NCBI GenBank assembly: GCA_029782475.1
Contig: JARPSM010000046.1
Span: forward strand, 1-35,219
Direction of reading: 5' to 3'
Length of the DNA: 35,219 nt
DNA from: Nitrososphaerota archaeon
Lineage (GTDB): Archaea > Thermoproteota > Nitrososphaeria > Nitrososphaerales > Nitrosopumilaceae
Shown piece by piece: positions 22,745 to 25,322 of the stretch (positions within the stretch are counted from its first letter, which is position 1; every line of letters begins with the position of its first letter). A program made the position numbers and the translations under genes. The notes under the pieces were generated by a model, which saw only the letters and a program-made list of their open reading frames with translations, was not told the DNA's origin and ran no database searches.

Positions 22745-23326
22745 ATGAAAAAGATAGAGGCTATAATTAAACGAAAAAATTTCCCTGCCATTAAAACTAA
22801 TTTGAATATAGTTGGAACTTACATAATTGATAAACGAAATTTAGATGATAGCCATATTTACGATGAATCTCAAGGCTCTCGAGTAGGTTTAACTGGATTA
22901 AAGTCAGTACCATTAGCAAAAATTGAAATGGTAGTTTCTGATAAAGATGCAAGAAAAGTTGTTGAAATGATTTCAAAAAATTCTGGCTTGTCATCAAATC
23001 ATGGTGGAAAAATCTTTGTTTCTGAAATGGAAGAAGTTGTAGATATGGCAACACTTGATGGAAAGCAAGATCTTGAAATATCTTTAGATAAAAAATTAGA
23101 ATCAAAATCATTACCAAAACGTAGTAGATTTGTACCATTACAAAAATTTACTTTACAAAAACTACAAGAAACATATGAAGAAAACAAAGAAACACTTCGA
23201 AATGATTACAGAATAAAATCTTTTAGTGATTTTGTAAATTACTGTATTATGAAATCACTTCCAATTCTAGAAAAACAATTAAAGAATCCTACAATTATCT
23301 ATGAAAATAATTTTGGCGATTTCTAA
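22745..23326 (+). CDS. P-II-like signalling protein with ~80 aa C-terminal extension
   Basis: 'MKKIEAIIKRKNFPAIKTNL...GLTGLKSVPLAKIEMVVSDKDARKVVEMISKNSG...GGKIFVSEMEEVVDMAT' P-II fold; extra 'FVPLQKFTLQKLQETYEENKETLRNDYRIKSFSDFVNYCIMKSL'. Confidence 0.75.
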   Translation: MKKIEAIIKRKNFPAIKTNLNIVGTYIIDKRNLDDSHIYDESQGSRVGLTGLKSVPLAKIEMVVSDKDARKVVEMISKNSGLSSNHGGKIFVSEMEEVVDMATLDGKQDLEISLDKKLESKSLPKRSRFVPLQKFTLQKLQETYEENKETLRNDYRIKSFSDFVNYCIMKSLPILEKQLKNPTIIYENNFGDF

Positions 23327-23415
23327 TAGTAGCCATTAAACAAAGCTAATCCTACTAATATCATACCTACTGCTGCAAGTACTAATTTTGCAATAGCAAT
23401 TTTGGATATTTTCAT
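23323..23415 (-). CDS. Unlisted 30-aa single-TM small protein
   Basis: ATG..TAG: MKISKIAIAKLVLAAVGMILVGLALFNGYY; ATGA-coupled to the upstream 42-aa ORF. Confidence 0.55.
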   Translation of the reverse strand: MKISKIAIAKLVLAAVGMILVGLALFNGYY

Positions 23416-23540
23416 ATAGATAAACCTACAATTAATGGCACAACTATAATTCCAACTATTGTTGCTACTTTGAGATAATCTCTACCGTGAAGTGGTTGCA
23501 TCTTTTCTCTATGAAATAATTTGCTTTTACGTAAATTCAT
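23412..23540 (-). CDS. Unlisted 42-aa small protein with C-terminal TM segment
   Basis: MNLRKSKLFHREKMQPLHGRDYLKVATIVGIIVVPLIVGLSI; starts 9 nt after the glnK stop. Confidence 0.6.
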   Translation of the reverse strand: MNLRKSKLFHREKMQPLHGRDYLKVATIVGIIVVPLIVGLSI

Positions 23541-23548
23541 AATTTTTC

Positions 23549-23878
23549 TTAGATTGTACTTTCCCCTTCAGCACCAGTTGCAATATCTACTGCTCTTAAA
23601 ACTTGAGAAACAAAGATTTTACCAATTCTACCTTTTTCTTTGATGATTGCTATAACTTCATCTTCTTTTGAATCTGCAACTATAACCTCTAAATGATATT
23701 TATCGTTAAATTGTGGCACAAAAATTTCACTACCTTTTGATGCGTGAATTTCCGGACCTGGTTTCTTTCCTCTTCCTCTAACTTTGGAAACTGTAAGACC
23801 TCCTATACCTATTTCCTTTAATCCTTCACTAATTGCCATGACATCATTTTTGCCAAGTATTACTTCTATTTTGAACAT
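23549..23878 (-). CDS. glnK: P-II nitrogen regulatory protein (GlnK-type)
   Basis: 'MFKIEVILGKNDVMAISEGLKEIGIGGLTVSKVRGRGKK...GRIGKIFVSQVLRAVDIATGAEGESTI'; divergent from amt. Confidence 0.93.
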   Translation of the reverse strand: MFKIEVILGKNDVMAISEGLKEIGIGGLTVSKVRGRGKKPGPEIHASKGSEIFVPQFNDKYHLEVIVADSKEDEVIAIIKEKGRIGKIFVSQVLRAVDIATGAEGESTI

Positions 23879-23886
23879 TTAATTAT

Positions 23887-23902
23887 TGTAATTTCAATTA
23901 CA
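23887..23902. promoter_or_regulatory. Perfect palindrome TGTAATT-TC-AATTACA between glnK start and its TATA-like element
   Basis: 7-bp perfect arms; AT-rich TTATAT element immediately upstream on the minus strand (about 23903-23911). Confidence 0.45.
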
Positions 23903-23927
23903 CATATAATTTCTGGTTTTGATAACT

Positions 23928-23942
23928 AAATGATAATCATTT
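23928..23942. promoter_or_regulatory. Perfect palindrome AAATGAT-A-ATCATTT in glnK/amt intergenic region
   Basis: Read directly; 7-bp perfect arms. Confidence 0.4.
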
Positions 23943-23993
23943 GTATATCAAATTTAGACATTGTTATTAATTCTAAATTAACCATTTTTTTTA

Positions 23994-25322
23994 ATGGTTC
24001 TGGATTCTGGAGATACAGCATGGATGCTTGTCGCAGGTAGTCTCGTGTTACTAATGATCCCTGCATTAGGTCTTTTTGAATCTGGACTTTTAAGAAAAAA
24101 GAATGCAGCATCAATTTTCATGCAGATCTTCTTTGGTTTAGCACTTTTGAGTGTCATGTGGTTTATTTTTGGATTTAGTGTTTCCTTTGGTGATTCAACT
24201 GCAGGATTAGTTGGAAATTTTGATTGGGTATTTCTTAAAGGAGTTCCATCTGATGCACCATTGGAACAATATGCTCCAACAATCCCTGGCGTATTATTTG
24301 TTAAATTCCAATTAATGTTTGCAGCAATTACTCCACTATTACTTACAGGAACTATTGCTGAAAGAATGAAATTTAATTCATTTATCATATTCATTGCAGC
24401 ATGGTCTATGCTAATCTACTATCCTCTAGTTCACTGGGTTTGGGGCGGTGGATGGTTAGCAGATCTTGGTGTTGTCGACTTTGCTGGTGGTATTGTAATT
24501 CATACAAGTGTTGGAATGGCAGCCCTTGCTGCCGCACTAGTACTTGGTAGAAGAAGAAACTATGGTCCTGCAATAATGATTCCTCATAGTATACCACTTG
24601 CTGTTTTAGGTTCTTCATTATTGTGGTTAGGATGGTTTGGTTTCAATGCAGGTAGTGCACTTTCAGCATCAGGCGGTGTTGCTGGTAATACAGTAATTGT
24701 AACTCACATGGCATCATCTGTATCTGCTTTAATTTGGGCAGGACTTTCATGGATTAGAACTGGAAAACCATCAGTTGTAGCTACAATTAACGGTGCAATT
24801 GCAGGTCTTGCTGGAATTACTCCTGCATCTGGATTTGTTAGTGCTGAACATGCATTTGTAATTGGTATTGCAATAGGCGTAATATCATACTCTGGTGTAG
24901 TGTTATTCAAAGAAAAATTAAAGATTGATGATGCACTTGATGTAAGCTCTGTTCACGGTGTTGCAGGTATTGTTGGTGCGTTAGCTATAGGAATTTTCGC
25001 AAGTACTGCAATTAATCCTGGAGGAGTAGATGGACTGTTATTTGGAAATTCAGATCAACTCTGGATTCAAGGAGTAGGTGTTGGTGTAGCAGCTGCTATG
25101 GGATTTGGTGGAACTTGGATAATTCTTCAAGTGTTAAAACATACTATAGGAATTCGAGTTTCTGCTGAAGTTGAGGATATAGGATTGGATATTAGTGAAC
25201 ATGCTGAATCTGCATATTCTGATGAGGAGGAATTTTTGTTAGATATGGATGATTATAAAGATGAATTACAAGAAAAAGATAAAATACTTTTTAAAAAGAA
25301 ATCAAACAGTGTTAAAAAATGA
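23994..25322 (+). CDS. amt: Ammonium transporter (Amt/Rh family)
   Basis: 11-TM protein 'DSGDTAWMLVAGSLVLLMIPALGLFESGLLRKKN', 'HWVWGGGWL', 'DFAGGIVIHTSVGMAALAAALVLGRR', 'WFGFNAGSA', 'DVSSVHGVAGIVGALAIGIF'. Confidence 0.97.
   Translation: MVLDSGDTAWMLVAGSLVLLMIPALGLFESGLLRKKNAASIFMQIFFGLALLSVMWFIFGFSVSFGDSTAGLVGNFDWVFLKGVPSDAPLEQYAPTIPGVLFVKFQLMFAAITPLLLTGTIAERMKFNSFIIFIAAWSMLIYYPLVHWVWGGGWLADLGVVDFAGGIVIHTSVGMAALAAALVLGRRRNYGPAIMIPHSIPLAVLGSSLLWLGWFGFNAGSALSASGGVAGNTVIVTHMASSVSALIWAGLSWIRTGKPSVVATINGAIAGLAGITPASGFVSAEHAFVIGIAIGVISYSGVVLFKEKLKIDDALDVSSVHGVAGIVGALAIGIFASTAINPGGVDGLLFGNSDQLWIQGVGVGVAAAMGFGGTWIILQVLKHTIGIRVSAEVEDIGLDISEHAESAYSDEEEFLLDMDDYKDELQEKDKILFKKKSNSVKK

Follow-up and report, generated by a model that had tools for sequence, protein, structure and literature searches.

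Two conserved, predicted single-helix membrane proteins encoded behind glnK in Nitrosopumilaceae are probable helpers of ammonium uptake

Introduction

Nitrosopumilaceae rank among the most abundant microbes of the sea. According to a 2023 review, whether ammonium transport is coupled to oxidation is unknown (PMC10432482). The window analyzed here, i.e. the whole 35,219-nt stretch of contig JARPSM010000046.1, raises a question that touches on this problem: directly behind a glnK gene, itself divergent from an ammonium transporter gene, two very short open reading frames follow each other on the minus strand. Are these frames genes, and do their products act on the transporter? The answer bears on the way in which ammonia-oxidizing archaea (AOA) reconcile taking up ammonium for assimilation with using it as fuel, as a pair of small proteins attached to the Amt1-GlnK unit provides two concrete targets for study. 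What is new here is the presence, in the amt1-glnK block of marine AOA, of two previously unlabelled, conserved membrane proteins with one predicted helix each.

Results

Organization of the locus

The first gene of the presumed operon is glnK (23878..23549, minus strand), which encodes a P-II family protein of 109 aa (PF00543, 57.9 bits). Its stop codon is TAA (23551-23549), and the ATG of ORF42 lies 8 nt further on (spacer at 23541..23548, minus strand), rather than 9 nt as given in the preliminary description; in relatives, this junction consists of overlaps or short spacers. ORF42 (23540..23412, minus strand) encodes a predicted single-pass membrane protein of 42 aa (MNLRKSKLFHREKMQPLHGRDYLKVATIVGIIVVPLIVGLSI), and ORF30 (23415..23323, minus strand) another one of 30 aa (MKISKIAIAKLVLAAVGMILVGLALFNGYY). 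The TGA of the former and the ATG of the latter share an ATGA stop-start overlap of -4 nt (23412..23415, minus strand). Re-reading of the sequence bore out the coordinates first proposed for this succession of glnK, 42-aa ORF, ATGA and 30-aa ORF.

Two plus-strand genes flank the unit. The amt gene (23994..25322; PF00909, TIGR00836) is separated from glnK by an intergenic region of about 115 nt (23879..23993), the presumed promoter region of both units. At the other end, a P-II-like gene of 193 aa (22745..23326; partial match to PF00543) overlaps ORF30 tail-to-tail by 4 nt. The unit had been described as lying opposite amt; more exactly, amt is divergent from glnK and it is the P-II-like gene that is convergent with ORF30. 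The PF00543 match of the 193-aa protein is confined to the second half of P-II (residues 53-100), and a P-II-like gene convergent to glnK or ORF30 is an arrangement kept in much of the family.

ORF42 and ORF30 as genes

ORFs as short as these, the second of which overlaps a convergent gene tail-to-tail, could belong to a regulatory leader or a non-coding 3' region in which reading frames are incidental. In a first-order Markov simulation of the AT-rich gap, a comparable ORF arrangement arose by chance in one of 20,000 draws, but the gene status of ORF42 and ORF30 is settled by conservation more than by this simulation. Pooled over 37 distinct loci carrying glnK, ORF42, and ORF30, in which synonymous sites are near saturation, pN/pS was 0.31 for ORF42 and 0.29 for ORF30 (0.22 for glnK), so that the selection check suggested for both ORFs points to purifying selection. 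Differences at codon positions 1, 2, and 3 amounted to 0.26, 0.14, and 0.43 in ORF42, and to 0.24, 0.14, and 0.43 in ORF30 (37 loci), a bias which resembles that of glnK, the third position being the most variable. Frames are conserved in close relatives, where broken ones would have spoken against genes, and all two-gene loci read retain the ATGA overlap, even though synonymous sites are near saturation. Furthermore, the ORF42 protein is preserved even where the gene is inverted (see below), and an Rfam scan returned no match. These results make incidental reading frames very improbable. The view that both ORFs encode genuine peptides translated from the glnK operon is thus upheld by conservation, purifying selection, strict synteny and the conserved ATGA overlap, and on this sequence evidence we consider them almost certainly genuine genes of the glnK unit.

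When the window is compared with its closest relatives, ORF30 shows few synonymous changes (five nonsynonymous to one synonymous against L002), a number too small to be informative. Position 19 of ORF30 is I in the window and T in nearly all other loci.

Coupled translation at -4 nt overlaps is documented in archaea, where the two genes so joined frequently code for partners in a heteromeric complex (PMC6728339, PMC10666635). We infer from the conserved overlap that ORF42 and ORF30 form a translationally coupled pair, in which, by analogy with known archaeal coupling, translation of ORF30 would depend on that of ORF42. Nitrosopelagicus-like genomes and streamlined Nitrosopumilus genomes have a gene for a soluble protein of 90 aa with repeated RGT motifs between the two ORFs (1581-1853 in L045, 1575-1847 in L062, and 1946-2212 in L060). 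Its overlap with ORF30 measures 4 nt in 14 of the 15 loci and 1 nt in the remaining one, L060, and it has no significant match in Pfam.

Features of the predicted proteins

The preliminary description ascribed a basic N-terminus and a C-terminal transmembrane helix to the 42-aa product and an almost wholly transmembrane nature to the 30-aa one, and both hydropathy and AlphaFold2 agree with it, predicting one helix each. In ORF42, a basic N-terminal segment (RKSKLFHREKM) precedes a helix that runs to the C-terminus, with charges of +7/-2 on the N-side and 0 on the C-side; AlphaFold2 places a single helix at residues 19-41 (mean pLDDT 81, from 19 sequences). In ORF30, charges are +3/0 ahead of the helix and 0 on the C-side, and the helix is placed at residues 5-26 (mean pLDDT 90, from 20 sequences). 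By the positive-inside rule, both proteins are predicted to be N-in/C-out. With one predicted helix, at most 50 aa and a positive N-side, both thus have the features of single-pass small membrane proteins. Across the 37 loci, K24, G30, I32, and P35 of ORF42 are invariant, as are S4, K10, L11, A14, G17, L25, and F26 of ORF30, in which G22 is found in 36 of 37.

Searches of Pfam, NCBIfam, PHROGs, and the PDB gave no significant match for either protein. ORF30 obtained weak scores only, with a PHROG (E=0.16) and, in the PDB profile search, with PetM (E=0.099), the latter judged to be due to chance. No paralogues of either ORF were found in the same genome. A type I toxin-like peptide was considered and rejected, as the ORFs occur in one copy, in strict synteny with glnK and without paralogues in the genome. 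A literature search, conducted mostly among non-subscription journals, found no description of these ORFs, although they may be labelled as hypothetical proteins in the annotations of some AOA strains. Such small genes, as this case illustrates, escape profile libraries.

Distribution across genomes

With the single ORF42 sequence as a query, matches were obtained in 67 of the 250 genomes of the family. For the genus of the window, i.e. 95 Nitrosopumilus-type genomes, GlnK-bearing ORF42 carriers were counted by profile. One and the same set of 57 of these 95 genomes carries the GlnK orthologue, ORF42, and an intact ORF30, and the synteny check called for in the preliminary description found both ORFs with glnK in 57 of 57 GlnK-bearing genomes. 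The 38 genomes without this GlnK have no intact ORF42 or ORF30, one start-less ORF30 remnant being all that remains. As neighbouring genes are lost together, co-occurrence alone is no proof of joint function; what the table for this genus adds is that no genome keeps glnK yet loses the small ORFs (0 of 95).

The window-type Amt is also found in 57 of the 95 genomes, and this set differs from the GlnK set at G113 and G156 only: in G113, Amt lies near a contig end and no glnK is seen, and G156 is a fragmented assembly. A second Amt type (about 46% identity) is near-universal in the genus and is present in most of the 38 genomes that lack the window-type Amt.

The ORF30 remnant belongs to G100 (L059 2037-2123). 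It has no ATG, GTG, or TTG start and lies beside the gene that normally comes after the locus. It was rejected as an independent ORF30 and is a deletion scar, glnK, amt1 and ORF42 being gone from this genome. An ORF30 match in G118 (E=0.007), inside a 415-aa frame, was judged to be due to chance.

Outside the genus, the pair is present in g14 (Nitrosopelagicus-like), in G231 and G232, and in G027, G039, and G047 (genera g11 and g13). At the other loci read in genera g5, g11, g13, g15, and g16, glnK is found without the pair, usually with a convergent P-II-like gene or some other gene directly after it. Pair-bearing loci are clustered on an Amt+GlnK tree, requiring 2 changes as compared to 11.1 with shuffled labels. 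The whole amt-glnK-ORF42-ORF30 block occurs in G039 (L010), G027 (L011), and G047 (L049), the rest of their genera being without the pair. G039 and G047 branch among the carriers in the tree but bear the codes of non-carrier genera, which suggests that the entire block was transferred laterally or that mis-binning occurred. When 400 genomes of the class were searched with the ORF42 profile, no convincing member was seen outside the family, and IMG/VR, searched with ORF30 and GlnK, gave no viral copies. Within the genomes searched, ORF42 and ORF30 are restricted to Nitrosopumilaceae.

ORF42 away from glnK

ORF42 is not always tied to glnK. In g5 and g11 genomes, short relatives occur as solitary genes at a distance from glnK (e.g. 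MGRFKPLEKKDYVKIAVIFGIITVPLIFAVSI), and G032, G035, and G037 carry such a relative without a GlnK orthologue in the genome. In addition, the orientation of ORF42 between glnK and ORF30 is reversed, with an intact frame, in G231 and in 'Nitrosopumilus sp. b1' (L104, same locus type), so that the gene is outside the glnK transcript there. The stand-alone relatives and the inversion suggest that ORF42 may have a function outside the glnK unit or may act in trans.

They also fit a different explanation, namely that the pair belong, as small structural or assembly subunits, to some other membrane complex, respiratory or otherwise, and are mere passengers in the glnK transcription unit. Archaeal complexes do hold overlooked single-helix subunits, such as AmoY and AmoZ (PMC10030591), but these are different, larger, amo-linked genes. 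Moreover, members of the genus without glnK and Amt1 have neither ORF, although their core energy metabolism is presumably intact, and ORF30 is found only in the glnK unit, one decayed remnant excepted. We therefore regard membership in another complex as unlikely.

Several of the stand-alone short relatives (L031-L040) adjoin a DUF4352 membrane-anchored protein. At L075 2634-2853 (G231), where ORF42 is inverted, one pair of 10-nt perfect inverted repeats (2619-2628 and 2852-2861) brackets both small ORFs. Finally, the KDYxKI-helix motif of ORF42 recurs in open frames of 90-97 aa in g13 (L041, L044, and G049:C20:7081-7155), with profile E-values from 2e-8 to 4e-7. These frames are possible distant relatives, but extend into a longer C-terminal part that contains Cys.

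GlnK and Amt type

GlnK closes AmtB by inserting the T-loop, a step that is governed in E. coli by uridylylation of Y51. When the window GlnK is aligned with the E. coli GlnK structures (2ns1/1gnk), the residue facing Y51 is I and the B-loop is five residues shorter. Near the C-terminus, DxA is found where E. coli GlnK has RxR. Judging from its sequence, canonical ATP binding by the window GlnK is doubtful. The shortened B-loop region is also present in AOA GlnKs outside the carrier group, and thus does not single out the carriers. A search of the genome for GlnD (PF08335) found none.

Deep-ocean lineages reportedly lack low-affinity amt genes (Amt1; Nmar_0588) and retain the high-affinity type, and the Amt2 gene is reported to track habitat rather than species phylogeny (PMC7490402). 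From this pattern and the patchy distribution of the window amt (57 of 95 genomes), we infer that it is of the low-affinity Amt1 type.

Discussion

A role in ammonium uptake

ORF42 and ORF30 are probably small helpers controlling ammonium uptake. A functional tie of the pair to Amt1/GlnK appears rather likely, and carriers of both ORFs also carry the window Amt type, two contig-edge cases aside. Docking on Amt or GlnK, as initially proposed, is plausible from a comparison of genomes: it is compatible with carriers having this Amt type together with GlnK, and with a locus behaving as a unit. On balance, we lean towards a small hetero-oligomer of ORF42 and ORF30 in the cytoplasmic membrane, modulating the low-affinity-type Amt together with GlnK. 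The two helices would pack together and on Amt1, possibly through a small-residue face of ORF30 (A14, G17, and G22) and the ORF42 helix. Some observations run counter to such a role: many genera have amt and glnK but neither ORF, and ORF42 has short relatives away from glnK (g5/g11) and is inverted in one lineage.

How the pair would act is a more tentative matter. A specific GlnK-adaptor mechanism is one possibility, though a doubtful one: the basic juxtamembrane segment of ORF42, on the cytoplasmic side, would either hold GlnK on Amt1 or release it. Such a membrane adaptor would suit a GlnK that lacks the uridylylation tyrosine, in a genome without detected GlnD, and the proposal draws on Methanosarcina mazei, also without GlnD, which needs the small protein sP36 for GlnK1-AmtB1 binding. 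In its full form, it is a speculative scenario of a new kind of Amt regulation: a two-component, membrane-integral adaptor would replace uridylylation in the docking of GlnK on the low-affinity Amt, having arrived together with the glnK-amt1 locus and disappeared with it where Amt1 is absent. If this is true, lineages reported to be without low-affinity Amt, such as those of the deep ocean (PMC7490402), should lack this control layer.

The nearest alternative to the adaptor proposal is control of the amount of Amt1. The pair would then serve as a protease adaptor or protector, like MgtR, MgtU, and MgtS for Mg2+ transporters, instead of docking GlnK. The size class and topology of ORF42 and ORF30 are those of stability-controlling small membrane proteins (PMC10710835), and the linkage to Amt1 is the same under both proposals. 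However, no protease link is seen in the locus, and a place behind glnK, not amt, is slightly better for a GlnK-centred role; we thus hold control of Amt1 amount to be quite unlikely.

Comparison with known systems

In the classical glnK-amtB pair, as in the window, amt and glnK are adjacent and GlnK is expected to dock on Amt. Here, however, the two genes are divergent, Y51 is replaced, the B-loop is shortened, and glnK is followed by genes for two additional membrane proteins.

AmoX, AmoY, and AmoZ are another example of small helical membrane proteins that were recognized late in ammonia-oxidizing archaea (PMC10030591). AmoY (9.6 kDa) and AmoZ (12.8 kDa) are amo-linked (Nmar_1506/1507) and present in all AOA (PMC10030591), whereas ORF42 and ORF30 are smaller, glnK-linked and found in Nitrosopumilaceae only. 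Identity with AmoY/AmoZ was thus rejected on size and linkage, and neither the amo linkage in streamlined genomes nor the conservation in all AOA that mark AMO accessory proteins is seen for ORF42 and ORF30.

The protein closest in proposed function is sP36 of M. mazei (61 aa), which is required for GlnK1 binding to AmtB1 (PMC10714827). As with the pair, this is a small protein of an archaeon that lacks GlnD, and it is linked to Amt and GlnK; the adaptor role proposed here would be the same. In contrast, sP36 lacks a transmembrane helix and moves between the cytoplasm and the membrane (PMC10714827), whereas ORF42 and ORF30 are predicted to be membrane-integral and two-component. The features of the sP36 family (about 60 aa, no transmembrane helix), as given in the description of sP36, set ORF42 and ORF30 apart from it. 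Homologues of sP36 are described from Methanosarcinia, Halobacteria and some bacteria, as opposed to Nitrosopumilaceae for ORF42 and ORF30.

Finally, AcrZ, MgtS, MgtR, and MntS are likewise proteins of about 30-50 aa acting on transporters (PMC10710835), but their transporters are other ones, and no sequence relation was found in Pfam, NCBIfam, PHROGs, or the PDB. For AmtB, the same review of small transporter modulators names GlnK/PII only (PMC10710835). Judged by sequence features, the ORF42/ORF30 pair looks like a small-protein transporter modulator that is a member of no described family, and the best reading of its likeness to sP36 or AcrZ/MgtS is that it is functional, not homologous.
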